A stretch of 37,026 nt of DNA from Gaiellales bacterium. GTDB taxonomy: Bacteria > Actinomycetota > Thermoleophilia > Gaiellales > JAICJC01. Positions 2 through 13,245 of the stretch are shown piece after piece. The first letter of the stretch is position 1, and the number at the start of each line of letters is the position of its first letter. The notes beneath the pieces are model-generated. The model ran no database searches, was not told the origin of the DNA, and was given only the letters and a program-made list of their open reading frames with translations. Location of the stretch: positions 1 to 37,026 of the forward strand of contig DASUHM010000068.1 in assembly GCA_036273515.1 (NCBI GenBank), written 5' to 3'. Position numbers and translations under genes: made by a program.

Positions 2-1984
2 CTCGTCGACAGCTACACCACCGCTGCCGACGCGACGAGCGGGGCCGGCACGTACGCGATCAACGCTCATGTCGCCGCCGGCCCCGGCGCCGACCTCGGC
101 AACTACAACGTCGAGCTCGTCGACGGCACCCTGACCGTGACCAAGGCGCCGCTCACCGTCAAAGCCGACGACCAGACCAGAATCTACGGCGACGCCAACC
201 CGACCCTGACCGGCACCGTGTCGGGCGCGAAGAACGGGGACGACCTGGTCGACTCGTACGACACACCCGCCACCCTGGCCAGCGGCGTCGGCGGCTACAC
301 CATCGCGGCGCACATCGTCGCGGGCCCTGGAGCGGATCTCGGGAACTACGACGTCACCCTCGTCGACGGCACCCTCACCGTGACCAGGGCGCCGCTCACG
401 GTCACGGCCGACGACCAGACCAAGACCTACGGCGACCCCAACCCGGCCCTGACCGGCACCATCACCGGAGCGAAGAACGGCGACGACCTCGTCGACACCT
501 ACACCACCGGCGCGGATGCCGCGAGCGGCGTCGGCAACTACCCGATCGACGCCCATGTCACAGCCGGCCCCGGAGCCGACCTCGGCAACTACGACATCAA
601 GCTGGTCGACGGCAGCCTCACCGTCACCAAGGCACCCTTGACGGTCACGGCCGACGACCAGACCAGAATCTACGGCGACACCAACCCCGCCTTCACCGGC
701 ACCATCACCGGCACCAAGAACGGCGACAGCCTCGTCGACACCTACACCACCGGCGCAGATGCCGCGAGCGGCGTCGGCAACTACCCGATCGACGCCCATG
801 TCACAGCTGGCCCCGGCGCCGACCTCGCCAACTACGACATCAAGCTGGTCGACGGCAGCCTCACCGTGACCAAGGCACCCTTGACGGTCACGGCCGACGA
901 CAAGACCAAGACCTACGGCGACCCCAACCCGGCCTTCACCGGCACCATCACCGGCACCAAGAACGGCGACAGCCTCGTCGACAGCTACACCACCGCTGCC
1001 GACGCGACGAGCGGGACCGGCACGTACGCGATCAACGCTCATGTCGCCGCCGGCCCAGGCGCCAACCTCGCCAACTACGACATCAAGCACGTCGACGGCA
1101 CGCTCACCGTGACCAAGGCACCGTTGACGGTCACGGCCGACGACAAGACCAAGACCTACGGCGACGCCAATCCGACGCTGACGGGGACTGTCACCGGCAC
1201 GAAGAACGGCGACACCCTCATGGACAGCTACACCACCGGCGCAGACAAGACCAGCGGCGTCGGCAACTACCCCATCGCGGCACACATCGCTGCCGGCCCG
1301 GGTGCCAGCCTGGACAACTACTCGGTCACCCTCCTGAACGGGTCTCTGACCGTGACCAAAGCGCCGCTGACGATCACGGCGGACGACAAGGCGAAGACGC
1401 TGAACGCCGTCAACCCGGCACTGACCGGCAGCATCGCCGGCGTGAAGAACGGCGATGCGATCGCTGCCGCGTACAGCACCTCGGCGACGGCCGGCAGCCC
1501 GGTCGGCACCTACACGATCGTCCCTGCGGCGGTCGACTCGAGCCCGTCCAAGCTCGGCAACTACAACGTGACGCTGGTGAACGGGACGCTCACCGTCACC
1601 TACGCCACCGGCAATTGCGCCGGGTCCGCCGGCCGAACCGTGCTGCAGCCGGTGAATGCCGACGGGTCAAGCGTCTTCAAGAAGGGCAGCACCGTGCCCG
1701 TGAAGTTCCGGGTGTGCGATGCGAACGGCGCGTCGATCGGCTCGGCGGGTGTCGTCACCGGGAGCGCGGCAGCCCCCGTGCTCCTGTCCAAGTCGACCGG
1801 CGCCGGCGGCGTCGACGAGAGCGTCTACTCCACCACGCCGGACACGTCGTTCCGGTGGGATCCGAGCGCGCAGCAGTGGATCTACAACCAGGCCACGAGC
1901 AACCTGACGTCCGGTGTCGTCTACACCTACAAGATCCCGCTGAACGACGGTACCTGGATCACCTACAGGTTCAGCATCAGGTAG
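2..1984 (+). CDS. MBG-repeat secreted protein with C-terminal PxKF domain (5' partial)
   Basis: The reading frame is open from the window edge, so the N-terminus and any signal peptide are missing; 660 residues are visible. Six 81-residue repeats, each starting near APLTVTADD and containing YGDxNP, KNGD and LxNY motifs, begin at 146, 389, 632, 875, 1118 and 1361, after a partial unit at 2-145. These resemble the MBG family of bacterial surface repeats. The last unit is the most divergent. The final ~125 residues carry a STVPVKF motif and two cysteines (GNCAG, FRVCDA) and look like the PxKF domain often found at the C-terminus of actinobacterial extracellular proteins. No membrane anchor or LPXTG motif is visible, so the protein is probably secreted or bound non-covalently to the envelope. 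A role in adhesion or as a structural stalk is inferred from the family only. Confidence 0.85.
   Translation, partial: LVDSYTTAADATSGAGTYAINAHVAAGPGADLGNYNVELVDGTLTVTKAPLTVKADDQTRIYGDANPTLTGTVSGAKNGDDLVDSYDTPATLASGVGGYTIAAHIVAGPGADLGNYDVTLVDGTLTVTRAPLTVTADDQTKTYGDPNPALTGTITGAKNGDDLVDTYTTGADAASGVGNYPIDAHVTAGPGADLGNYDIKLVDGSLTVTKAPLTVTADDQTRIYGDTNPAFTGTITGTKNGDSLVDTYTTGADAASGVGNYPIDAHVTAGPGADLANYDIKLVDGSLTVTKAPLTVTADDKTKTYGDPNPAFTGTITGTKNGDSLVDSYTTAADATSGTGTYAINAHVAAGPGANLANYDIKHVDGTLTVTKAPLTVTADDKTKTYGDANPTLTGTVTGTKNGDTLMDSYTTGADKTSGVGNYPIAAHIAAGPGASLDNYSVTLLNGSLTVTKAPLTITADDKAKTLNAVNPALTGSIAGVKNGDAIAAAYSTSATAGSPVGTYTIVPAAVDSSPSKLGNYNVTLVNGTLTVTYATGNCAGSAGRTVLQPVNADGSSVFKKGSTVPVKFRVCDANGASIGSAGVVTGSAAAPVLLSKSTGAGGVDESVYSTTPDTSFRWDPSAQQWIYNQATSNLTSGVVYTYKIPLNDGTWITYRFSIR
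146..1597 (+). repeat. six tandem 243-bp MBG repeat units
   Basis: Unit starts at 146, 389, 632, 875, 1118 and 1361 are exactly 243 bp apart. Units 2 and 3 are nearly identical in DNA, including silent positions. The partial unit at the left edge resembles the unit exactly four periods downstream (position 1 aligns with 973) more than it resembles its neighbour. This points to recombination or gene conversion between units. The last unit is the most diverged. Confidence 0.9.
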
Positions 1985-1993
1985 GCCGGATGA

Positions 1994-2022
1994 CGGTCTG
2001 GCCGGCTCGTCCGGCCAGACCG
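1994..2022 (+). terminator. 12-bp perfect hairpin after the MBG gene
   Basis: The arms CGGTCTGGCCGG (1994-2005) and CCGGCCAGACCG (2011-2022) pair perfectly around a five-base loop, ten bases after the MBG stop codon. There is no T-run, which is common for terminators in high-GC actinobacteria. The hairpin covers the place where the -35 element of the next promoter would lie. Confidence 0.6.
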
Positions 2023-2025
2023 GCC

Positions 2026-2031
2026 TATACT
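2026..2031 (+). promoter_or_regulatory. -10 box TATACT for the amino acid dehydrogenase gene
   Basis: TATACT lies eight bases before the GTG start at 2040. Transcription would start at or next to the start codon, giving a leaderless message. No Shine-Dalgarno-like sequence lies between. The same arrangement is seen before 6896(-), 12114(-), 12162, 30818 and 32287. Confidence 0.6.
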
Positions 2032-2039
2032 CGCCGCTC

Positions 2040-3110
2040 GTGCAGCTCTTCTCAGAGCACGAGCAGGTGGTCGTGTGCCACGAGCCCGAGGCGGGCCTTC
2101 GGGCCATCATCGCCGTCCATGACACCACGCTCGGCCCGGCCCTCGGCGGCATCCGCATGTGGCGGTACGACTCGGACGAGGCCGCCCTCACCGACGTCCT
2201 GCGGCTCTCGCGCGGGATGACGTATAAGAACGCGGTCGCCGGCCTCGACCTGGGCGGCGGCAAGACGGTCGTCCTGGGCGACCCGCGCACCGACAAGACG
2301 CCGCTCCTGTTCCGCGCGCTCGGCCGCTTCGTCGACTCGCTGGGCGGCCGCTACCTGGCCGCCGAGGACGTCGGCACGAGCACCGACGACGCGGAGCTGG
2401 TCGCGCTCGAGACCGACCACATCACCGGCCTCCCCATTGCCCGGGGCGGCTCCGGCGACCCGTCGCCCTTGACGGCCTGGGGCGTCTTCTGCGGGATGCG
2501 CGCGGCCGCCGCCGAGGCGGGACTGGGCGACGAGATGCGCGGGATCCGCGTCGCCGTCCAGGGCGCCGGGCACGTCGGCGCGGGCCTCGTCCGCCACCTG
2601 CTCGACGCCGGGGCGGTCGTCACGGTCTCCGACATCTACTCCGAGCGGGTCGAGGAGCTCGTCGCCCTGGGCGCGTCCGCCTGCCCGCCCGAAGAGGTGC
2701 ACCGCCAGGACTGCGACATCTTCGCTCCGTGCGCGCTCGGCGCCGTCATCCGGCCCGAGACGGTGGGCGAGCTGCGCTGCCGCGTCGTCGCCGGCGCGGC
2801 CAACAACCAGCTGCTGGACGGGTCGATGGGCGACGAGCTCCACCGCCGGAGCATCGTCTACGCGCCCGACTTCGTCATCAACGCCGGCGGGGTCATCAAC
2901 ATCTCGGAAGAGCTCGGCCACCCGTACGACGCCGAGCGGGCAAAGGCCAGCGTCGAGCGGATCGCCGGCACGCTGACCTCGGTCTTCGAGCGCTCGCGCC
3001 GGGACGGCATCGCCACGCATGTCGCCGCGGACCGGCTGGCCGAGGAGCGCATCGCCGCCGCCAGGGCATCGCGACCGGATGCGGTCGCCGCCCTGCACCG
3101 GCCGGGATGA
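2040..3110 (+). CDS. Leucine dehydrogenase-type Glu/Leu/Phe/Val dehydrogenase
   Basis: This is an NAD-dependent oxidative deaminase of branched-chain or aromatic amino acids, giving the 2-oxo acid and ammonium. The 356 residues match the usual length of leucine, valine and phenylalanine dehydrogenases. Residues ~20-45 hold the family block HDTTLGPALGG followed by RMW. The active-site lysine segment GMTYKNAVAG and the LGGGKTVVLGDP block follow at ~60-80. The Rossmann dinucleotide motif VQGAGHVGAGLV is near residue 175, and AGAANNQL and INAGGVINI lie in the C-terminal half. The GTG start was chosen because the family N-terminus begins there and a TATACT box sits eight bases upstream. The stop overlaps the rhomboid start (ATGA). 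Leucine is the most likely substrate, but valine or phenylalanine cannot be excluded. Confidence 0.9.
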   Translation: MQLFSEHEQVVVCHEPEAGLRAIIAVHDTTLGPALGGIRMWRYDSDEAALTDVLRLSRGMTYKNAVAGLDLGGGKTVVLGDPRTDKTPLLFRALGRFVDSLGGRYLAAEDVGTSTDDAELVALETDHITGLPIARGGSGDPSPLTAWGVFCGMRAAAAEAGLGDEMRGIRVAVQGAGHVGAGLVRHLLDAGAVVTVSDIYSERVEELVALGASACPPEEVHRQDCDIFAPCALGAVIRPETVGELRCRVVAGAANNQLLDGSMGDELHRRSIVYAPDFVINAGGVINISEELGHPYDAERAKASVERIAGTLTSVFERSRRDGIATHVAADRLAEERIAAARASRPDAVAALHRPG

Positions 3111-3895
3111 TCCCGCTCAAGGACAACATCCCCACCAGGCGCCTGCCGATCCTGACCCTGGCGCTGATCGTCGCCAACCTGGCCATCTTCATCTGGGCGG
3201 AGCACGCGCCGGCCGATCGGCTGCCGACCAACCTCGGCGTGCCGCTGTCGGTGCCCGGCTTCACGGCGGTGACCGCCGAGTTCGGGTTCGTCCCCTGCGA
3301 GGTGCGAAACACCTGCCCGCACGGCGACGACTCGGTGCTGCTCGGCTACGAGAACAACCGGCCGGTGTACGCCCGCGTCCACCACGTGCCGGTGCTCGCC
3401 AGTGTGCTGACGGCGATGTTCATGCACGGGAGCTGGGAGCACGTGCTCGGCAACATGCTGTTCCTGTGGATCTTCGGGAACAACATCGAAGACCGGGTCG
3501 GCCGGCGCCGCTTCCTCATCTTCTACCTGCTGGGCGGCCTGGCGGCGGCCGGGCTCCAGTTCGCCACCGGCCCGAACTCCGACGTCCCCAACATCGGCGC
3601 CTCCGGCGCGATCGCCGCGGTGCTCGGCGGCTACCTCGTGCTCTATCCGCGGGCGGCCGTGATCACCTACATCCCGCCGATCTTCTTCTTCCCGCTGCCC
3701 GCGGTGCTCTTCCTGGTCGGCTGGATCGTGCTCCAGATCTACTCCGCGAGCGCGGTGCAGGTCGGCAGCGCCGGCGGCGGCGTCGCCTACTACGCGCACA
3801 TCGGTGGATTCGTGTTCGGCCTGCTCACCATCCGCTGGTGGGTGGCGATGAACGAGCGCCGCGCGCCCCCTTCCGCATGGCCGGCCGATCTGTAA
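3107..3895 (+). CDS. Rhomboid family intramembrane serine protease
   Basis: This 262-residue multi-pass membrane protein has the rhomboid core. HGSWEHVLGNMLFLW carries the conserved His and Asn of the second core helix. GASGAIAAVLGGY holds the nucleophile serine (GxSG) and AHIGGFVFG holds the catalytic histidine. A hydrophobic segment near residues 12-30 is the first transmembrane helix. It is followed by an extracytoplasmic loop of about 60 residues with two cysteines (PCEVRNTC). The protease cleaves membrane proteins within or near their transmembrane segments; the substrate here is unknown. The start ATG overlaps the TGA of the amino acid dehydrogenase by ATGA, so the two are translationally coupled although no shared pathway is evident. 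Confidence 0.9.
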   Translation: MIPLKDNIPTRRLPILTLALIVANLAIFIWAEHAPADRLPTNLGVPLSVPGFTAVTAEFGFVPCEVRNTCPHGDDSVLLGYENNRPVYARVHHVPVLASVLTAMFMHGSWEHVLGNMLFLWIFGNNIEDRVGRRRFLIFYLLGGLAAAGLQFATGPNSDVPNIGASGAIAAVLGGYLVLYPRAAVITYIPPIFFFPLPAVLFLVGWIVLQIYSASAVQVGSAGGGVAYYAHIGGFVFGLLTIRWWVAMNERRAPPSAWPADL

Positions 3896-3904
3896 GGTGC
3901 GGGC

Positions 3905-4228
3905 ATGCTCAACGTGCGCTACGACCCCGAGTCGCGGTCCGGCTTCGTGCGCCTGCGCGAGGGCCGCACGGCCCGCACCCGGCAGCTCTCGCCCCAGGCG
4001 ACGGCCGAGTACGGCCGCCGCGGCGAGCTGCTCGCGATCACGTTGACCGACGTCGACTCGACGGCGGCCGAGTTCCTGCGCACGGCCGACGAGGATGCGC
4101 TCCTGGCCGTGATCCGCGCCCAGACCGGCAAGGCCGTCTGGACGACCCCGCAGGGCGGCTCGGCACGGCCGAAGCCGGCCGCGGCGAGGTCGGGCTCGGG
4201 CGGTTCGAAGCGAAAGCGGCGGCGCTAG
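3905..4228 (+). CDS. Small DUF2283-like protein with basic tail
   Basis: This 107-residue protein has an N-terminal ~60 residues with the pattern of DUF2283 proteins: VRYDPES, a VRL strand, then GELLAITLTDV. The C-terminal 30 residues are rich in Arg, Lys, Ser and Gly and end in KRKRRR, which could bind nucleic acid or a membrane surface; this is inference. A TAAGGT box (3893-3898) lies six bases before the ATG, so it may be transcribed on its own without a leader even though it starts only nine bases after the rhomboid stop. Its TAG shares the four bases CTAG with the stop of the convergent gene. The function is unknown. Confidence 0.7.
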   Translation: MLNVRYDPESRSGFVRLREGRTARTRQLSPQATAEYGRRGELLAITLTDVDSTAAEFLRTADEDALLAVIRAQTGKAVWTTPQGGSARPKPAAARSGSGGSKRKRRR

Positions 4229-5193
4229 CGGCCTGACGCGGCGCTCTGGCCGACGCCGTAGGCCTGCATCGCGAGCACGATCCGGTCGGCCCGCAGCACG
4301 CCGTTGGGCTCCAGCTGGGCGGCGGGGAGCTCACGCGGATCGTCGCCGCGGCGCGTCTCCTCGACGGTCACCGAGCGCTCGAGCAGGTCGAGCCGAACGA
4401 CGTACTCGTACCAGGAGATGTCCCACATGATCGTGATCTTCACCGGCCGCGGCAGCTCGAGGCCGTCGCAGTGGACGTTCACGATCGGGTCGCCCAGGCT
4501 GCGCGAGATGGCGACGACGCGCTCGACGTGCTCGGAGCGGTTGAACGCCTCGAGCGCGAGCCGGCGCACGTGGCGGGCGTCGGACTCCTTTCGGCGGGCC
4601 TCGGCCAGCTCGGCGTAGCGGGCGCGGCCGGCCTCGAGCTCCTGCTCGAGCTGGCCCTGCACCTGCGCGAAGCGGGCCATCTCGGCCGCCCGCTCGTCGA
4701 GCGCCGCGGCCGCGGCGTGGTGGCGGGCGATCTCGGACTTGTGGGCCGCCTCCGCCTGGGCGGCGCGCTCCTCGGCGCGGCGCTTCTCGTCCTGGAGCGA
4801 GCGCACCTCGCGCTCGTGCTTTCGCACCTCGCCCTGGAGATCCTTCAGCTCACGCTTGATGCCGCGCAGCTCGGCGGCCTGCTGTTCGGCCTTCGCCAGC
4901 GCCGAGCGCACCCGGTCGAGGTCGAACTCGACCGACTGGAGCTGGCCGCGGAGCCGGTCGATGAGCGACTCGCGCTCGCGCAGCAGGTGGTCGGACGGCG
5001 GGTTGGCGTGGACGGCCACGATCGGCCGGCCCTCGGCCCGCCAGCCGCGCCGGTCGGCGCGCTCGTAGCAGAGCGGGCACACCTTCGCGAAGCGCTTGGA
5101 CTGGGGATCCTGATACAGGCGCGCCGGCTCGCCCACCAGTAGATGGCGGCGGCATAGCGCGCAGCTCGCGGTGTCCTCGACCGTGCTCGGCAT
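4225..5193 (-). CDS. Zinc-knuckle and coiled-coil protein, function unknown
   Basis: The product is 322 residues long. Near residues 11-42 it has two paired cysteines (CALC and CPLC) about 25 residues apart, typical of a small zinc-binding domain. Residues ~70-215 are a long charged coiled coil rich in Glu, Arg, Lys, Ala and Gln. The last ~100 residues form a compact domain with EHVERVVAISRSLGDP and ITIMWDISWYEYVV. I do not recognise a named family. The ATG at 5193 is preferred over a TTG at 5214 because GAGGACGG lies just before it. The architecture suggests a scaffold or DNA-associated protein, but that is a guess. The gene is convergent with the DUF2283-like gene and shares CTAG at the stops. 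Confidence 0.75.
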   Translation of the reverse strand: MPSTVEDTASCALCRRHLLVGEPARLYQDPQSKRFAKVCPLCYERADRRGWRAEGRPIVAVHANPPSDHLLRERESLIDRLRGQLQSVEFDLDRVRSALAKAEQQAAELRGIKRELKDLQGEVRKHEREVRSLQDEKRRAEERAAQAEAAHKSEIARHHAAAAALDERAAEMARFAQVQGQLEQELEAGRARYAELAEARRKESDARHVRRLALEAFNRSEHVERVVAISRSLGDPIVNVHCDGLELPRPVKITIMWDISWYEYVVRLDLLERSVTVEETRRGDDPRELPAAQLEPNGVLRADRIVLAMQAYGVGQSAASGR

Positions 5194-5252
5194 TCCGTCC
5201 TCGACGCGGGCCAACTAGTCTATCGCGTCGGCGCACCCGGGGGAAGCCGGCT

Positions 5253-6896
5253 CTAGCACTTCGGGCGGCTGCTGGTCATCGCGTCGGCGACGGTGTCGAG
5301 CGACGGCGCCAGGCTCAGGTTGACGACGCCCGGATAGGCCGTGGTGACGTCGGTCATTCCGTCCGGGCCGCGGGCCACGCAGGCGTCCGGCGCGTGCGGC
5401 TGCCAGTACGGGCTGTAGCGCACGCGCACGAGGTAGCGGCCGGGATCCGGCGCCAGGAAGCTGATGCCCTCGTGGCCGAGCCGGATGAGCATCGCCGGCC
5501 GCTCGCCCGGCGGCGCCGAGACGATCGGCGCCGCGTACGGCAGCTTGTAGATCTGCAGGTGGGCTGAGCTCCACACCAGCTCGAGGCCCGAGTTGCCCGA
5601 TCGCAGCAGCCGCGCCTCGGCCGCCGAGCTGTAGTCGAGGGTCGTGTCAGGCAGGACGACATAGCGGACGCCGAGCACGCGCAGCCAGTGGTCGTACTTC
5701 GCGGCCGTCAGGTGGTCGTCGTACAGCACCCGGTTCTCGGGGAAGTCGTCCTGCCGGAACCACCCGCGCGCGAGCGGGAATCCGGCCCGGGCCAGGTAGT
5801 AGGCCTCCCAGTGGCCCCAGGTGGCGACGGCCTCGACGCGGTGCTGGTCGTCGTTCTGCGCGCGCAGGTAGTCGACGGCGGGGCGCCAGTAGCCGGCCGA
5901 CGCGGCCGGGTTGCCCCAGGCCGAGTAGGCGTCGCGGATCCACGGCCCCACCTGGAGCGCGGCGGTCGCGGCCAGGAGCGGGAGCACGATCACCTGCGAG
6001 CGCTGGCGGCTGACGTTCGCGGCCAGCCACAGGAGCGGCGCGCCGGCGACGGCGAAGAGGCGGGTCGCGTTCGAGCCGACCGGGCTCTTGAACAGGAACG
6101 CGCACAGGTTCAGGATCAGGTACGCGACGAAGAGCATCCGCAGCGAGCGGGCGCGCGGGCTCTTGCCGGTCACGTAGAGGCCGGCAAGCGAGAACAGCAC
6201 GACCACGAGCGCGTCGGTGACGTTGTACGGGTAGATGCCGCCGCTCGGGAAGGCGCGCTGCAGGAGCACGCCGGCGAACAGGGCGAGCACGACGATCCCG
6301 AACGCGACCCAGTGGCGGCGGGCGGCGTCGATCGGCTGGGGATGCCCCAGCAAGAGGCCGGCGAGCATGGCGAGCAGCACCGCGAACGCGAGCGGCGAGA
6401 AGCCGAGCGTCGCCACGACGGCGCCGCAGAAGAGCAGCCGGCGGCGGCGCTGGAGCGCCAGCAGCGCGGCCACCGCGCAGGCCGCGCCGGCGGTGAACGG
6501 GTACGAGCCGGACACGATCAGGACGAAGGTCGTCGTGCAGGCGAACGCGACGGCGGGGCCGCGGGCCGCCCGTCCCCACTCGTGCCGCGAGAGCGCGGCG
6601 AACGACGCGGCCAGCGTCGCCGCCGCGGCCACGAGCACGGGCAGCTCGCCGGTCTGCGCCGCGAGCGGGTAGTAGAGGACGCTGTAGCTCACGAACTCGT
6701 ACCGGCCGGCGTACCACAGGTTGTTCCAGAGCTGGAACCCGCCGTGACGGTAGAGCCAGGTCTGGAACAGGTGCGACGGCGCGTCGCCCGAGGGCGGCAC
6801 GAGGGTCAGGAGCGCGACGACCAGCACGGCCGCGAGCGCGCCGCACGCGATCGGCAGAACCGCCTCTCGCCGGAAACGTCCGAGGACGGCAGGCAC
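5253..6896 (-). CDS. Large multi-pass membrane protein, GT-C/YfhO-like
   Basis: The product has 547 residues, with about ten hydrophobic segments in the first ~370 and a soluble C-terminal part. After the first membrane helix comes a GDAPSHLFQTW loop, the place where GT-C glycosyltransferases keep their catalytic acidic residue. The C-terminal half contains LRVLGVRYVVLPD, a phrase typical of YfhO-like and 6-pyruvoyl-tetrahydropterin-synthase-related membrane proteins. A role in lipid-linked sugar transfer to the envelope is inferred. The GTG at 6896 is preferred because TATACT lies eight bases upstream; an ATG at 6962 would add 22 residues without hydrophobic character and is the alternative. 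The gene is divergent from tRNA-Ala. Confidence 0.75.
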   Translation of the reverse strand: MPAVLGRFRREAVLPIACGALAAVLVVALLTLVPPSGDAPSHLFQTWLYRHGGFQLWNNLWYAGRYEFVSYSVLYYPLAAQTGELPVLVAAAATLAASFAALSRHEWGRAARGPAVAFACTTTFVLIVSGSYPFTAGAACAVAALLALQRRRRLLFCGAVVATLGFSPLAFAVLLAMLAGLLLGHPQPIDAARRHWVAFGIVVLALFAGVLLQRAFPSGGIYPYNVTDALVVVLFSLAGLYVTGKSPRARSLRMLFVAYLILNLCAFLFKSPVGSNATRLFAVAGAPLLWLAANVSRQRSQVIVLPLLAATAALQVGPWIRDAYSAWGNPAASAGYWRPAVDYLRAQNDDQHRVEAVATWGHWEAYYLARAGFPLARGWFRQDDFPENRVLYDDHLTAAKYDHWLRVLGVRYVVLPDTTLDYSSAAEARLLRSGNSGLELVWSSAHLQIYKLPYAAPIVSAPPGERPAMLIRLGHEGISFLAPDPGRYLVRVRYSPYWQPHAPDACVARGPDGMTDVTTAYPGVVNLSLAPSLDTVADAMTSSRPKC

Positions 6897-6904
6897 GGAG
6901 GCCG

Positions 6905-6910
6905 AGTATA
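6905..6910 (-). promoter_or_regulatory. -10 box TATACT for the membrane protein gene
   Basis: On the minus strand TATACT is followed by eight bases and then the GTG at 6896, the same spacing as before the gene at 2040. This is the main reason for choosing that start. No convincing -35 element is visible. Confidence 0.45.
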
Positions 6911-6992
6911 TGGAGTGGCGCGGGCGCAATGAGGAGGCAGCATCTGCCACGTCCCCGCTCATTCCCGCCGCCCGTCCCGGCCATGCGCCGGG

Positions 6993-6998
6993 TATCCT
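6993..6998 (+). promoter_or_regulatory. -10 box TATCCT for tRNA-Ala
   Basis: TATCCT lies ten bases before the first base of the tRNA, the usual distance for a tRNA promoter with a very short 5' extension. The -35 region is not recognisable by eye. Confidence 0.45.
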
Positions 6999-7008
6999 TC
7001 CGGCTCCC

Positions 7009-7081
7009 GGGGCGTTAGCTCAGCTGGGAGAGCACCAGCTTTGCAAGCTGGGGGTCACCGGTTCGATCCCGGTACGCTCCA
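7009..7081 (+). tRNA. tRNA-Ala (anticodon TGC)
   Basis: The 73 bases fold into a complete cloverleaf. The acceptor stem is GGGGCGT (7009-7015) with ACGCTCC (7074-7080), including the G3-U70 wobble pair that identifies alanine tRNAs. The anticodon arm is CCAGC-TTTGCAA-GCTGG with anticodon TGC. The T arm has GGTTCGATCCC, and the discriminator base is A at 7081. CCA is not encoded. Its 3' 32 bases are repeated exactly at 10595-10626, so this gene is the inferred integration site of the segment that follows. Confidence 0.97.
7049..7080 (+). repeat. attL-like repeat: 3' end of tRNA-Ala
   Basis: These 32 bases run from the 3' strand of the anticodon stem to the end of the acceptor stem and are identical to 10595-10626. 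Exact duplication of a tRNA 3' end at the two borders of a foreign segment is the classic trace of tyrosine-integrase insertion. The copy here keeps the tRNA functional. Confidence 0.85.
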
Positions 7082-7104
7082 CTCGCAGGCTCCCGCCAGC
7101 ACGG

Positions 7105-7125
7105 CCTGACGGCGCTTCGGTCAGG
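7105..7125 (+). terminator. Short hairpin downstream of tRNA-Ala
   Basis: CCTGAC (7105-7110) pairs with GTCAGG (7120-7125) around a nine-base loop. It could end transcription of the tRNA or, read the other way, of the ANTAR gene that stops at 7218. There is no T-run. Confidence 0.35.
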
Positions 7126-7217
7126 GTGTGAGTGCTGTCGGACGGCTCGCCAGGCTCCGCACGACTCCGCGACGACTCGCGCGGATAGGGGTCGCACGCG
7201 ACCGCCGGCGTTCAGAG

Positions 7218-7595
7218 TCAGTCGGGGTGTGCGTGGGACGAATGCTGGAGGTGTCCGAGTCGGAGAACCACGTCGCGCGCGACGTCCCGCAGCTTCCGAT
7301 TTCGATCCTGCGACGTCTGGCGGAGAAGGCGAAACGCGTCCCCGCGACTGACCCCGTAACACTGGCAGATCGCCGTCTTCGCCCGCTCGATCTCTGGATC
7401 CCGGCCGACCTTGGCGCACTCGTGGATGATGAACGGCTCGACCTGCGCCCAGGGCACGATCCCGTCGTCGCAGGCAGCCGTGAGCCGATCCAAACGGCGC
7501 AGGTGGGTCGTGGCGAGCTCGTCGACGAGGTCGACGGACGAGGCGTGTACACACCCACCGCCACCGACAATGATCGCGCGCTCGTTCACGCCCAT
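7218..7595 (-). CDS. Stand-alone ANTAR domain protein
   Basis: This 125-residue protein has its C-terminal ~55 residues matching an ANTAR domain: IERAKTAICQCYGVSRGDA, FRLLRQTSQD, then NRKLRDVARDVV. ANTAR domains bind RNA as dimers at paired hairpins with six-base loops and control termination or translation. The N-terminal ~70 residues show no recognisable sensor domain, so it may be controlled by abundance, by a partner, or by the GAF-ANTAR protein nearby. The ATG is preceded by GAGGTGGG. It lies 75 bases downstream of a STAS gene on the same strand and is probably co-transcribed with it. Confidence 0.8.
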   Translation of the reverse strand: MGVNERAIIVGGGGCVHASSVDLVDELATTHLRRLDRLTAACDDGIVPWAQVEPFIIHECAKVGRDPEIERAKTAICQCYGVSRGDAFRLLRQTSQDRNRKLRDVARDVVLRLGHLQHSSHAHPD

Positions 7596-7670
7596 AGCGT
7601 ACCCACCTCACCAACACCAACCCCCGTAGCCCGAGCGTCTGGGAGGGGCACCACCACGGGTCGAGCGCGT

Positions 7671-8036
7671 TTATGCGGGCTGTCCGCCTCGTTCTCGTGC
7701 CGTAGCGGCGCGCAACGCGTCGTCACGGTTCTCGAACAGCTCCAGGACCTTGAACGCTTCGACGAGGTCGAGGGTGCGTCGGGGTTGACCGTAGTGAGGG
7801 GCGACGATGAGGAGCTGCTCGCGGAGCTGCGCGTGGCGGATCGCGGTGGTGATGATGCTGGAGTCGATGAAGGTCGCCGCCGTCAAGTCGAGTATGACGA
7901 TCGTGCCGCCTTCCTCGATCCGGGTGAGTGCTTGGTCGAGTTGTGGGGCGGTGGCGAGGTCGTGCTCGCCGCTGGCGGAGACGACCGTGATCGAGTCGCC
8001 GAGGTCGTGGACCTCGACCGCGCTTTCTGGAGACAA
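7671..8036 (-). CDS. STAS domain anti-sigma factor antagonist-like protein
   Basis: The 121 residues form one STAS domain. GEHDLATAPQL opens it, and LDLTAATFIDSSII contains the DSS segment where SpoIIAA/RsbV proteins carry the phosphorylated serine. Such proteins release a sigma factor by binding its anti-sigma kinase when unphosphorylated. The TTG start at 8036 was chosen because AAGGGGGG lies seven bases upstream and STAS homology begins seven residues later. Upstream in-frame starts would add a low-complexity extension. The ribosome-binding site can pair with an upstream arm, and a hairpin with loop AACGGC lies further up. No kinase gene is nearby. Confidence 0.8.
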   Translation of the reverse strand: MSPESAVEVHDLGDSITVVSASGEHDLATAPQLDQALTRIEEGGTIVILDLTAATFIDSSIITTAIRHAQLREQLLIVAPHYGQPRRTLDLVEAFKVLELFENRDDALRAATARERGGQPA

Positions 8037-8039
8037 CGC

Positions 8040-8080
8040 GAAGCCCCCCTTCGTGATGTTCCGAGGGGCCGCCGGGCTTC
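8040..8080 (-). promoter_or_regulatory. Leader structure that can hide the STAS ribosome-binding site
   Basis: On the minus strand GAAGCCC (8080-8074) can pair with GGGCTTC (8046-8040), and CCCT (8067-8064) with AGGG (8050-8047). Together they close around a 13-base loop. The AAGGGGGG ribosome-binding site of the gene starting at 8036 lies inside the 3' arm, so the folded form should block translation. This was seen by eye; no folding energy was computed. Confidence 0.5.
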
Positions 8081-8118
8081 GCGCGCGAACGCCGCCGGGA
8101 TCCGCCTCGGAAGCGTGG

Positions 8119-8140
8119 CTGGCTCCGCCGTTGGAGCCAG
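8119..8140 (-). promoter_or_regulatory. Candidate ANTAR-target hairpin with hexaloop AACGGC
   Basis: On the minus strand CTGGCTCC pairs perfectly with GGAGCCAG (eight base pairs) around the six-base loop AACGGC. A at loop position 1 and G at position 4 are the conserved bases of ANTAR-bound hairpins. It lies about 80 bases before the STAS start at 8036, in an operon that also encodes an ANTAR protein. Known targets have two such hairpins; I could not find a convincing second one, so this is only a candidate. Confidence 0.45.
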
Positions 8141-8198
8141 GTGAAGAATATCTGCCACGGCGAACCGACCGCAACCAACTCCAGCTCCGCACGTTCCG

Positions 8199-8489
8199 CT
8201 ATGGCGGCTCGGGTGTGGTCTGCGCGCGGGCGTACCGTCTGGTCGAGGGTGAGGGGTTGGGGTCGGGGCGGTGCGCGCCTGCGGCCGCGGGGGGAATCGA
8301 GGGGGAGGAGGGGCTTCGGACTGCTGGGCGGCTCGATCGGGGTCGTGTGGGCGGCGCCCGCCCCCGGGTGGACGGGCTACCGGACGCGGTCGCCGGCCCT
8401 CTGTCGGCGAGGATCGTGATGACGGCGACGTAGATCGTCACGCCGAGGGTAACGACACCAACCGCGATCCCGACCGTCTCCGCGTCCAC
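8199..8489 (-). CDS. Small membrane protein with proline/serine-rich tail
   Basis: The 96-residue product starts with MDAETVG and one hydrophobic helix of about 20 residues (VGIAVGVVTLGVTIYVAVI), followed by a low-complexity tail rich in Pro, Ser, Arg and Thr. The GTG start is supported by AGGAGG seven bases upstream. No family is recognised. The N-terminal helix and good ribosome-binding site argue that at least the first 30 residues are real; the tail could be read through non-conserved DNA. It lies upstream of the STAS and ANTAR genes on the same strand and could be the membrane component of that group, which is speculation. Confidence 0.45.
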   Translation of the reverse strand: MDAETVGIAVGVVTLGVTIYVAVITILADRGPATASGSPSTRGRAPPTRPRSSRPAVRSPSSPSIPPAAAGAHRPDPNPSPSTRRYARAQTTPEPP

Positions 8490-8610
8490 GATCCCGCCTC
8501 CTGCCCGGAGTCGAAGGGCTGCTTCCTCGCGCCGATACTGATCGGTGGACGCGGGTGGTACGATGGTGGGCGTCAGGTTGAGATGCCAGCCGGTCGGGGG
8601 GTGAGGTCAA

Positions 8611-8657
8611 TCCGTCCGAGGCTTGCAGAAAGCCTGGCAGCCGCAGACAACGACGGA
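8611..8657 (+). promoter_or_regulatory. Nested stem in the leader of the second STAS gene
   Basis: TCCGTC (8611-8616) can pair with GACGGA (8652-8657), enclosing a perfect inner hairpin AGGCTT (8619-8624) / AAGCCT (8630-8635) with the five-base loop GCAGA. With the stem at 8675-8709 it makes a leader of about 100 structured bases before the STAS gene at 8711. A regulatory role is inferred. Confidence 0.35.
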
Positions 8658-8674
8658 CTCCGGGTTTCGGCGCG

Positions 8675-8709
8675 GCCTCTCCCCAACGTCGTGAGTGACG
8701 GGGAGAGGC
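8675..8709 (+). promoter_or_regulatory. 10-bp hairpin that sequesters the ribosome-binding site of the STAS gene
   Basis: GCCTCTCCCC (8675-8684) is perfectly complementary to GGGGAGAGGC (8700-8709). The 3' arm contains the GGGGAGAGG ribosome-binding site of the ATG at 8711. The 15-base loop can form an extra GTC/GAC stem with the hexaloop GTGAGT. As drawn, translation should be off unless something opens the stem. The hexaloop does not have the A1/G4 bases of known ANTAR sites. Confidence 0.6.
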
Positions 8710-8710
8710 A

Positions 8711-9109
8711 ATGGCCGGAGGAGAGTTCCACGCTCAGGATCTGGGTGAGCACCGCTGGGTGCTCTCGGCGCAGGGAGAGGTCGACCTTTCAACCACCCCG
8801 TCGCCGCGCGCCGTGATCGAGGCGGTGATGGACACGGGGACGCGGGTGGTCGTCGACGTGTCGGCGGCCGAGTTCATCGACTCCACGACGGTCAACGCTC
8901 TGGTGTACGGCCATCAGCGAGCGGCGGAGGACGCGTGCCATGCCTTCGTGATCGTGGCCGCGCCGGGATCCGCCGCACGCCGGCTCCTCGACCTGCTGAG
9001 CATCGTCGAGGTGATCCCCCTGTACGACAGCCTGGCGGAGGGCGAGCGGGCCGCGTTTAACGGCACGGCTCAGAGGACGCCGTCGGGGTCGATCGACCCG
9101 CTCCGCTGA
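8711..9109 (+). CDS. STAS domain anti-sigma factor antagonist-like protein
   Basis: This 132-residue protein is essentially one STAS domain: GEVDLSTTPSPRA near residue 22, then VDVSAAEFIDSTTVNALV. The DST segment contains the serine expected to be phosphorylated by an anti-sigma kinase. A short tail (TPSGSIDPLR) follows the domain. The ATG start has a strong GGGGAGAGG site, but this lies in the 3' arm of a perfect 10-bp hairpin. The last 40 bases overlap the convergent GAF-ANTAR gene. No kinase or sigma factor lies in the segment, so it would have to act on a host partner. Confidence 0.85.
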   Translation: MAGGEFHAQDLGEHRWVLSAQGEVDLSTTPSPRAVIEAVMDTGTRVVVDVSAAEFIDSTTVNALVYGHQRAAEDACHAFVIVAAPGSAARRLLDLLSIVEVIPLYDSLAEGERAAFNGTAQRTPSGSIDPLR

Positions 9110-9813
9110 GCCGCCGCGACGAGTCGCGCCGCGACCTCCGCGAGCCGTACATTCTTGTTCTGGGACGCCTTGCGGAGAATGTCGAAGGCGTCGTCGGCGG
9201 TGCAGCGGCGTTCCCGCATCAGCATTCCCTTGGCCTGGTCGATCACCGCGCGGCTTCGGAGCGCGTTTGCCAGCTCGTGCGCGAGTCGTGCCGTGGCGCG
9301 GTGGAGCTCGGCTGTGGAGATCGCCGTACCCAGCTGCGCTGCGAGGAGCTGGCCGGAGCGGATCTGCTCCTCGGCGAAGTGGCGCTGCTCACGCGAGTAG
9401 AAGTTCAACGAGGCGCCCAGTGCCTGGTCGTGGTCGATGCTGACCCCGACCGACAGGCTGCTGTGGATCCCCAGCTGGGTGGCCAGGTCGGCGACGTGCT
9501 GCCAGCGCTCGTCCTCGCTGAAGTCGTCCACGACGATCGGCTCGTCGTTCTGCAACAGCGCCTGGATGCACGGCCCGTCCTTGGCCTCGTACTGGGCCTC
9601 GTCGATATGCACGAGCCGCGAGTCGCTCGTCTTCACCGTCGAGTAGATCTCGCGCTCGCCGATCGTCAGCGTCGCCCCGTCCGCGCCCAGCGCATCGACG
9701 GCGAAGTCGATGATCATCTGGATCAGCCGCTGCAGCCGCGCCTCGGTGCCATCCACCTCATCCGGAGGCCCCACCTTCGGCACACCACCGTCAGGCACGG
9801 TCCACCGTCCCAT
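9070..9813 (-). CDS. GAF-ANTAR sensor/RNA-binding regulator
   Basis: The product has 247 residues. Residues ~25-165 form a GAF domain (VDALGADGATLTI, KDGPCIQALLQ, then PIVVDDFSEDERW and GIHSSLSVGVSI), a small-molecule or redox sensor fold. Residues ~185-240 are an ANTAR domain (AVIDQAKGMLMRERRCTADD, FDILRKASQNKN, RLAEVAARLV), which binds RNA hairpins. The protein is therefore predicted to switch termination or translation of target messages in response to a signal. Ligand and targets are unknown; the hairpins in this same segment are the nearest candidates. The ATG has GGAG nine bases upstream. Its 3' end overlaps the convergent STAS gene by 40 bases. Confidence 0.85.
   Translation of the reverse strand: MGRWTVPDGGVPKVGPPDEVDGTEARLQRLIQMIIDFAVDALGADGATLTIGEREIYSTVKTSDSRLVHIDEAQYEAKDGPCIQALLQNDEPIVVDDFSEDERWQHVADLATQLGIHSSLSVGVSIDHDQALGASLNFYSREQRHFAEEQIRSGQLLAAQLGTAISTAELHRATARLAHELANALRSRAVIDQAKGMLMRERRCTADDAFDILRKASQNKNVRLAEVAARLVAAAQRSGSIDPDGVL
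9086..9099. repeat. 14-bp perfect palindrome in overlapping gene ends
   Basis: GGGTCGATCGACCC is identical on both strands. It sits in the 40-base overlap of the convergent STAS and GAF-ANTAR genes and encodes GSIDP in both proteins. It may be a protein-binding site, a processing signal, or a chance result of both frames using the same codons. Confidence 0.6.
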
Positions 9814-9926
9814 CTACGAGGGCTCCGAAGCCAGGAGTGCGAGTCGAAGCGGTCACAAACGCGATGTCGTGCGAGGTGTGCACAGGGATGGTACCAGCCG
9901 CCCACTGGTCGGTCGCCCGCCCCACC

Positions 9927-9952
9927 CCCAGCCCCGCCGACGGGTGGCTGGG
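9927..9952 (+). promoter_or_regulatory. Hairpin in the region between the GAF-ANTAR and third STAS genes
   Basis: CCCAGCC (9927-9933) pairs with GGCTGGG (9946-9952), with a further CCG/CGG inside. The 257 bases between the two divergent starts hold a second possible stem, CGTGGC (9972-9977) with GCCACG (9994-9999). No clear promoter is visible. A leader or terminator role is possible. Confidence 0.3.
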
Positions 9953-10070
9953 AGACGAGTGCTACCGTGAACGTGGCTTCTGACTTCGTGCAGGCCACGC
10001 TTCCCGCTTGTTCGCAGCCGGTCGCTTCACGCGAGCATACGACGGGGAGCAGATCGGAGTCCCGACCAAG

Positions 10071-10424
10071 ATGCACGGAACCACTCGTGCAGAGCAGCGC
10101 GACGGCGCGTGGCTGATCGAACTGCGCGGCGAGCACGACCTCGCAACCGCACCCACTGTCGCCGAACACCTCGAGCACGCGCGTTCCCTCGCCCTGCCCG
10201 TGGTCATCGATCTCACCGCCGTCGAGTTCATCGACTCCTCGATCGTCGCCGCCGTTGCGCGGACACTGGCCGCTCGCGACGGACAGCCGTCCGTGGCCGT
10301 TGTCGCCCCGACCGGCCAGCCACGCGGCCGGCTACTCCTACTTGGCCTGGACGGACACCTGCCCGTCTACGACAACCGACGCGCCGCCCTCGTCGCACTC
10401 GGCCTGACCAGGCCGATGGTCTGA
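10071..10424 (+). CDS. STAS domain anti-sigma factor antagonist-like protein
   Basis: The 117 residues form one STAS domain, with RGEHDLATAPTVAEHLE, then IDLTAVEFIDSSIVAAV holding the DSS phosphoacceptor segment. It is clearly related to the product of 7671-8036: both share EHDLATAP and a FIDSSI block. This suggests duplication within the segment or repeated recruitment. The ATG at 10071 has a GGAG eleven bases upstream; a TTG at 10008 would add 21 residues. It is the last intact gene before the right border repeat. Confidence 0.8.
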   Translation: MHGTTRAEQRDGAWLIELRGEHDLATAPTVAEHLEHARSLALPVVIDLTAVEFIDSSIVAAVARTLAARDGQPSVAVVAPTGQPRGRLLLLGLDGHLPVYDNRRAALVALGLTRPMV

Positions 10425-10469
10425 CGCGCGCTGGCTTGGCGAGACCTGCAAGCGTCGGGCACCTTCCCA

Positions 10470-10594
10470 GTGGGCGCTCTCGTGGACAGCCGAGTCCACA
10501 CCTCCGGGTACTACGTGCAGGTGCGCTACCCCAACGGGCGGCGCTGGGTCACCGTGGCCGTTTCGGACAGTCGCTCGGTCGCAACGCGAAACGG
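10470..10594 (+). pseudogene. Possible gene remnant at the right island border
   Basis: An open frame from GTG at 10470 gives SGYYVQVRYPNGRRWVTVAV followed by SDSRSVATR, a plausible protein-like stretch, and then runs into the tRNA copy, where the sequence stops looking like protein. It could be a gene cut by the integration or recombination event, or chance coding. I do not recognise a family. Confidence 0.25.
10558..10594. repeat. 8-bp inverted repeat touching the right border repeat
   Basis: CCGTTTCG (10558-10565) and CGAAACGG (10587-10594) are perfect inverted copies 21 bases apart. The right arm ends exactly where the 32-bp tRNA copy begins at 10595. Inverted arms next to a crossover core are what an integrase or excisionase might bind, but a hairpin of other origin is equally possible. 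Confidence 0.45.
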
Positions 10595-10626
10595 TGGGGG
10601 TCACCGGTTCGATCCCGGTACGCTCC
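10595..10626 (+). repeat. attR-like repeat: second copy of the tRNA-Ala 3' end
   Basis: These 32 bases are identical to 7049-7080 and end after the acceptor-stem CTCC. The next base is G instead of the discriminator A. The sequence upstream does not fold into the rest of a tRNA, so this is a border copy and not a second gene. The immunity-like gene starts ten bases further on. Confidence 0.85.
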
Positions 10627-10635
10627 GTGGTTCTG

Positions 10636-11211
10636 ATGCCAGATCCGGTCTTGCGTGGGTCTCCCCAGACGCTGAGTGAAGCCGACCGGCGAGTCGTCGC
10701 AGCATGGGCGGCTGACTGCGCACAGCGGGTGCTGGAGGTGTTCGAGGACCAGGCTCCGGGCGACAGCCGCCCGCGAGAGGCCATCGCTCGGGCCCGCGCC
10801 TTCGCCCGCGGCGAGTCCACCGTCGCGGAAGAGATCCGCCGCCGTTTCACGAACGGCGGCGCGGCTCGGGCGGTGCGCGTGCCGGCCGCGGCGGCCTCCG
10901 CTCGGGCGGCCGGGCAGGCGGCGGCCGTCCCCCACTCGGGCGCGCACGCCCTCGGCGCCGCTGCCTATGCCGCCAACGCGGCGGGCCTGGCCGCCCCGGA
11001 TCGGCCGGCGGCCCTCAAGGAGGAGGTGTGCTGGCAGCTGCGCCATCTGTCTCCCGGCGTCAGGAAGGCTCTGCGAAAGCTGCCGCCCGTGGGCGAGAAT
11101 CTGTCTGGACCGCTCGGGCCGGGGTTGCTCGCCTCGGGCGTGCTGGGATCGATCATCGGCGATCTCCAGGCCGGCCTGGCGCATTCCGACGAGGAGGACG
11201 CATGGCGGTGA
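10636..11211 (+). CDS. Immunity-protein-like alpha-helical protein (Imm-5-like)
   Basis: The product is 191 residues and strongly alanine/arginine-rich. The block REAIARARAFARGE, followed later by ARAAGQAAAVPHSGAHALGA and AAYAANAA, matches the style of proteins annotated as putative immunity proteins (Imm-5-like) in actinobacteria. The true biochemical role of that family is not known to me, and no cognate toxin is seen here. The ATG at 10636 begins ten bases after the island border. An earlier GTG in the same frame lies inside the tRNA copy and is unlikely. The stop overlaps the next start by ten bases, so the VOC gene is coupled to it. Confidence 0.6.
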   Translation: MPDPVLRGSPQTLSEADRRVVAAWAADCAQRVLEVFEDQAPGDSRPREAIARARAFARGESTVAEEIRRRFTNGGAARAVRVPAAAASARAAGQAAAVPHSGAHALGAAAYAANAAGLAAPDRPAALKEEVCWQLRHLSPGVRKALRKLPPVGENLSGPLGPGLLASGVLGSIIGDLQAGLAHSDEEDAWR

Positions 11212-12687: not shown

Positions 12688-13245
12688 ATGACGAGATCCC
12701 GCACCGGTCGCGGGAGGCAGCCCGCCCGGGAGATGACGCAAGCCGATGTCGCCGGACTCCTCCACCAGTTCGAGTCGGCAGGCGTCGGCGTATGGATCGA
12801 CGGCGGCTGGGGCGTCGATGCGCTCATCGGCGATCAGCTGAGGGCGCACGACGACCTCGACATCGTCGTCGGCATCGAGGACGTCCCCACCGTCCAGGAG
12901 ATCCTCCGGCGCGCTGGCTACACCCTTCGCGATCGCGAAGCGCCACTCAGCTTCATGATGGCCGACGCCCACGGACGCCAGGTGGACGTCCACCCGGTGA
13001 CGTTCGATGAGCAGGGCAACGGGCTGTACCAGATGGACGACGGCGACACGTGGACGTACCCGGCCACCGGCCTCCTCGGCACCGGATCGATCGGCGGCAC
13101 GCAGGTGCGCTGCCTGACGCCCGAGCTGCAGATGCGTGTCCATGCTGGCTATGAGCTGGAGGCGAAGGATCACGAGGAGATCCGGATCCTTCACGAGCGG
13201 TTCGGCGTCGCGACGCCGCCGGGCTACGAGCCGCCGGAAGCGTAG
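12688..13245 (+). CDS. LinA/ANT(2'')-like nucleotidyltransferase
   Basis: The product has 185 residues. WIDGGWGVDALIGDQLRAHD followed by DLDIVV matches the active site of the small lincosamide nucleotidyltransferases and aminoglycoside 2''-adenylyltransferases: a GGWGVDAL block, then Arg/His and the metal-binding aspartates DLD. VDVHPVTFDEQGNG and CLTPELQMRVHAGY follow, as in that family. Such enzymes transfer AMP from ATP to a drug hydroxyl. In environmental actinobacteria many homologues have unknown substrates, so resistance is not shown. GGAGGG lies eight bases before the ATG. The 3' end overlaps the convergent broken LLM gene by 22 bases. Confidence 0.8.
   Translation: MTRSRTGRGRQPAREMTQADVAGLLHQFESAGVGVWIDGGWGVDALIGDQLRAHDDLDIVVGIEDVPTVQEILRRAGYTLRDREAPLSFMMADAHGRQVDVHPVTFDEQGNGLYQMDDGDTWTYPATGLLGTGSIGGTQVRCLTPELQMRVHAGYELEAKDHEEIRILHERFGVATPPGYEPPEA

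Follow-up and report, generated by a model that had tools for sequence, protein, structure and literature searches.

We analysed a 37,026-nucleotide stretch of DNA from a Gaiellales bacterium (contig DASUHM010000068.1 of assembly GCA_036273515.1), here called the window, and concentrated on the segment that runs from the end of its tRNA-Ala(UGC) gene to a partial copy of the same gene further downstream (7081-10626). The segment is probably an immobile remnant of an integrative element, flanked by attachment (att) sites but without an integrase, and similar in structure to a cis-mobilizable element (CIME). We propose that an integrative element recombined site-specifically into the genome's one tRNA-Ala(UGC) gene, at its 3' end, such that a copy of the tRNA tail was displaced to the far end of the insertion. 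Later loss of the integrase and transfer genes would then have left an att-flanked stub with three STAS and two ANTAR genes, and these genes probably stem from the lineage of the host itself.

An exact copy of the tRNA-Ala(UGC) tail bounds the segment

The intact tRNA-Ala(UGC) gene (7009-7082, plus strand), recognized by both ARAGORN and Rfam, forms the attL-side junction. Positions 41-72 of the tRNA (7049-7080, plus strand) recur on the plus strand at 10595-10626 with 32 of 32 bases identical, and the identity breaks off sharply on either side. The right copy, which is attR-like, is followed by a G where the tRNA has A73. The segment therefore has two exact 32-bp direct repeats of a tRNA-Ala 3' end, at what is a target of site-specific integration, and in this respect the original prediction, made from the sequence of the window, proved correct. 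The host assembly is a metagenome-assembled genome (MAG) of 98 contigs and 4.07 Mb, 96.6% complete, and none of it holds a third copy of the repeat within 3 mismatches. The 21-bp tail of the tRNA gave zero matches to shuffled window sequences. The genome-wide search that had been suggested as a check thus finds the repeat in two places only and shows it to be specific; a chance repeat is ruled out by the exact two-copy match together with the empty shuffles, and a dispersed fragment by the copy number. ARAGORN, run over all Rfam tRNA matches in the assembly, recorded one UGC and one GGC tRNA-Ala gene only, so that the gene in the window is the sole UGC-Ala tRNA in this tally. No RNA element besides the tRNA was found in the segment.

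A partial tRNA copy downstream and in the same orientation could also be what is left of a tandem tRNA duplication that decayed without any mobile element being involved. However, the 40 bases 5' of the right copy match the 5' part of the tRNA at 14 positions, while the 32 bases at the 3' end are perfect, and the edges of the copy fall where the cores of tRNA integrases fall. With no 5' half to be traced we rejected this explanation, which we consider extremely improbable.

tRNA-Ala(UGC) is used by integrase-bearing elements of the order

The same tRNA gene is occupied by elements with integrases in other genomes of the order. In G033 a 401-aa tyrosine integrase abuts tRNA-Ala(UGC) and a 44-bp tRNA tail lies 6 kb downstream, and in the complete genome G009 a related integrase abuts the gene, and two copies of the tail follow on the same strand, 72 and 78 kb further downstream. 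Further tRNA-Ala tail copies were found in G006, G018 and G056. Judged from these loci, tRNA-Ala(UGC) is a recurrent integration site across this order, and since elements with integrases occur at it, integrase-mediated insertion is the natural source of the repeat in the window.

These loci also showed features of their own. In the G033 element (L032, G033:C160, 4712-10823 of the locus) the integrase frame runs antisense into the tRNA, and a Dam-like methyltransferase and a possible replication-type protein are encoded alongside it. The two tail copies in G009 (L034/L042, 584-662 kb) are 5.9 kb apart, and the locus is likely a large island with tandem attachment sites. In G006 (L033, G006:C8, 4246-6015) a frame resembling a serine recombinase, assigned by eye, has its end exactly in a tRNA-Ala fragment of 52 bp, which suggests that this tRNA may be the target of a large serine integrase as well. 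A different kind of tRNA locus, L234 (G000:C82:38813-39039), consists of a tight tandem array of tRNA-Glu(CTC), tRNA-Pro(TGG) and tRNA-Asp(GTC), all of which duplicate tRNAs present at other places in the genome. An additional tRNA-His lies 2.5 kb off, and the array may be derived from a phage or plasmid.

The genes are missing from this site in a congener

Contig C60 of the congener G002 aligns to window positions 242-7081 at 85% identity, and the alignment ends at the last base of the tRNA. In G002 the tRNA is followed by 444 bp, which contain an unrelated cupin-like gene, before synteny resumes from a glyoxalase gene, at window position ~11157-11191. The left flank and the downstream glyoxalase gene are kept in G002, and the STAS and ANTAR genes are missing from this place. 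Related genomes had been suggested as a check for an empty site downstream of tRNA-Ala, and in G002 such a site is no more than half shown: the left edge is exact at 7081, but the right edge does not coincide with the repeat. We infer that the genes were gained in the genome of the window rather than lost in the congener.

Several observations weigh against the segment being a remnant of this kind. The difference from G002 runs ~560 bp beyond the right repeat, which puts the right border at ~11157-11191 and not at 10626. Moreover, only one relative keeps both flanks, and loss in G002 instead of gain here may explain the comparison equally well. The base after the right copy poses a further difficulty. 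A73, the conserved discriminator base of tRNA-Ala, is present in 12 of the 12 relatives inspected and in the window's own gene, and a displaced host tail should carry it, yet G takes its place after the right copy. A tRNA-Ala integrase used as a query against the window uncovered no relic: besides hitting the tRNA itself, it gave a weak match in the repeat that was not significant. Finally, an integrase could lie outside the 98-contig, 96.6% complete MAG. Serial changes at the tRNA-Ala site are likely.

The sequence just beyond the right repeat, outside the repeat pair, encodes an Imm5-like immunity-type protein (10636-11211, plus strand; Pfam PF21805, E=8e-33), starting 10 bp past the repeat. 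This gene is also missing here in G002, which has a weak, partial match of 47% elsewhere, and no toxin gene was recognised beside it. Further into the right flank, positions 12688-13245 encode a predicted member of the aminoglycoside-2''-adenylyltransferase Pfam family (E=7e-35).

STAS and ANTAR genes make up the segment

The regulatory genes that the original prediction listed between the repeats were recovered by Pfam. The first is a stand-alone ANTAR protein of 125 aa (7218-7595, minus strand; PF03861, E=4e-14), and it is followed by STAS protein 1, of the anti-anti-sigma type (7671-8192, minus strand; PF01740, E=2e-10), whose start codon is uncertain and whose domain begins at about residue 66. 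STAS protein 2 (132 aa; 8711-9109, plus strand; PF01740/PF13466) is convergent with a GAF-ANTAR protein of 247 aa (9070-9813, minus strand; PF03861, E=7e-21; GAF_2, E=9e-14), and the two genes overlap by 40 bp. STAS protein 3 (138 aa; 10008-10424, plus strand) also has a Pfam STAS match, so that three proteins of the segment contain a STAS domain above the Pfam cut-off. The remaining entry in that list, a small membrane protein at 8199-8489, did not hold up as well. This frame, of 96 aa, matched no family and was passed over by a simple coding-score caller, and a protein suggested by the open frame alone is doubtful.

At the right end, immediately before the repeat, lies a truncated piece of a small gene (10500-10594, plus strand) that is 53% identical over 36 aa to a 121-aa gene on contig C19. 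Its family has paralogues in G000, G001, G002 and G004, all of the same bacterial family, and there is a weak match in a single further genome of the order. A right end that cuts off a lineage-specific gene looks like rearrangement or decay, not like the clean end of an element. Among the loci surveyed we observed a multi-copy, dispersed small protein family (L063, 6526-6891, with paralogues in L079-L085) that shares the motif [FY]YVQVRYP..RW..VAV and is nearly confined to this bacterial family.

We examined the origin of the GAF-ANTAR protein with a tree built for this protein only. The tree places it in a clade with proteins of G002 and G003, which belong to its own family (f1), with a support of 100/99 and identities of 39-45%, and a distant foreign donor is not supported for this gene. 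This grouping would also be expected if the STAS and ANTAR genes were old residents of the locus, next to which a different and since lost element left the tail copy. The present difference from the congener would then stem either from a loss of the region there or from turnover of the hotspot through homologous recombination in its flanking sequences. The lineage-specific gene piece inside the right end, the G+C content of the segment (67-70%, near the 68-69% of the right flank) and the extension of the G002 difference past the repeat are all consistent with such a history. However, the segment begins exactly at the end of the tRNA and has an exact tRNA tail at its far end, none of its genes is found at this place in the congener, and the bacterial family has its remaining GAF-ANTAR and STAS genes at unrelated loci. 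We therefore consider old residence unlikely, though not negligible, and retain the att-flanked remnant as our explanation.

The families of these genes suggest what they might do in the host. All three STAS proteins have a D-S motif (IDSS, IDST and IDSS) that resembles the site phosphorylated in SpoIIAA/RsbV-type antagonists. The nearest solved structures to STAS 3 are 4qtp, an anti-sigma factor antagonist, and RsfB (8ih8), and the protein shows 44% identity to a chromosomal STAS protein of the same genome (contig C97) that adjoins a HATPase_c_2 kinase. At E below 1e-8 we count seven HATPase_c_2 matches in the host, and kinases of this type are encoded on contigs C75, C55 and C97. The STAS proteins are thus likely to be extra anti-anti-sigma antagonists that would compete for RsbW-type kinases of the host. 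ANTAR proteins are transcription antiterminators (PMC3369936). The GAF-ANTAR and ANTAR proteins of the segment would likely act as signal-gated RNA-binding antiterminators, the former coupling a small-molecule signal to RNA binding. The proposal that the segment plugs into a partner-switch network of the host is hence plausible as far as the presence of predicted kinase partners goes; that it does so as a mobile package is weakly supported.

The segment is probably not mobile at present

No integrase or transfer gene was found between the repeats: the Pfam matches are STAS, ANTAR and GAF only, and NCBIfam returned no mobility family. The original prediction had likewise seen no integrase in 7009-10626, and neither Pfam nor the integrase query found one there. 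We also ruled out defence or phage cargo, as the PADLOC and PHROGs searches of the segment were both empty.

The prediction had gone on to read the segment as a working, integrase-less package of regulators that is still moved in trans. Indeed, the att-like repeats are intact, integrases for tRNA-Ala exist in the order, and the host has kinases that could serve as STAS partners. However, the suggested check for an integrase acting in trans gave a different picture. The PF00589 matches in the host's own assembly are two Xer-type recombinases and two truncated integrase C-termini (of 91 and 125 aa), the serine recombinase/resolvase family PF00239 has no match, and no intact non-Xer site-specific integrase was found by these searches. 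Furthermore, exact excision would rebuild the sole tRNA-Ala(UGC) with G73 and would thereby risk an essential tRNA. No second copy of the segment was found by DNA comparison in 60 relatives, nor any GAF-ANTAR protein elsewhere with more than 45% identity to that of the window. The attachment core has no match in viral contigs, where the GAF-ANTAR protein has one match, at 35%; phage records gave two matches of 33-35%, both in unannotated faecal contigs and uninformative. Together with the truncated lineage gene at the right end, the missing integrase and the G73 left by excision leave the idea of a working mobile package without support, and we regard continuing mobility as very unlikely. A more elaborate version, in which the segment is a minimal transferable element with a payload of partner-switch antagonists and ANTAR regulators, which integrases from further tRNA-Ala(UGC) elements would move in trans and which would rewire the stress response of its recipient, seems to us very unlikely as well.

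Comparison with known systems

The original prediction took a mobile payload consisting only of such regulators to be new, but actinobacterial chromosomes commonly have clusters of GAF-ANTAR, ANTAR and STAS genes, and plasmids, too, can carry GAF-ANTAR genes. By a home-made and therefore rough profile, 24 of 79 public GAF-ANTAR loci have a STAS domain within 2 kb, and STAS domains number 7-11 per 100 kb at up to 2 kb from the GAF-ANTAR gene compared with ~1.5 per 100 kb at distances of 3-6 kb; additional ANTAR genes show the same clustering. GAF-ANTAR genes are present in 59 of 72,556 plasmid records, among them a Mycobacterium plasmid of 25 kb that has both GAF-ANTAR and ANTAR genes, a Streptomyces plasmid where GAF-ANTAR adjoins a SpoIIE phosphatase, and another Mycobacterium plasmid on which 0.6 kb separate GAF-ANTAR from a STAS/SEC14 gene. 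The phrases 'ANTAR domain' and 'STAS domain' occur together in no open paper among those searched, a result that says nothing beyond wording. If the segment is indeed a remnant, it would be a further case of regulatory genes, here STAS and ANTAR, being reshuffled via tRNA hotspots, and the comparison shows that tRNA-Ala(UGC) is used repeatedly for integration in an uncultured order of Thermoleophilia. Elements of this kind are already known, and the segment leaves our understanding of them unchanged.

CIMEs are integrative elements that lack integration and transfer genes and have kept attL and attR (PMC5704250). The segment resembles them in having a pair of direct repeats at the 3' end of a tRNA, an intact tRNA on one side and cargo without integrase or transfer genes. 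It differs in that no helper element or accretion is seen at the segment, and in that its repeats would not rebuild a tRNA with A73. No integrase or transfer relic remains in the segment to link it to an integrative and conjugative element or an integrative and mobilizable element as its parent, and we use 'CIME-like' for its apparent structure.

The G033 (6 kb) and G009 (large island) elements share with the segment the target tRNA, the part of it that is copied (44-45 bp there, 32 bp here) and the orientation. In contrast to the segment, both have a tyrosine integrase abutting the tRNA, and the segment's genes are not common to the G033 element. The chromosomal clusters of Micromonospora, Actinoplanes and Amycolatopsis likewise have STAS genes near one or more GAF-ANTAR genes, whereas the segment is bounded by a tRNA-tail repeat and has a stand-alone ANTAR gene; these clusters were picked by their GAF-ANTAR gene and not checked for a tRNA-tail border. 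Finally, the actinobacterial plasmids, like the proposed parent of the segment, are mobile DNA with ANTAR regulators, but such regulators are single genes among many there and the whole content here.

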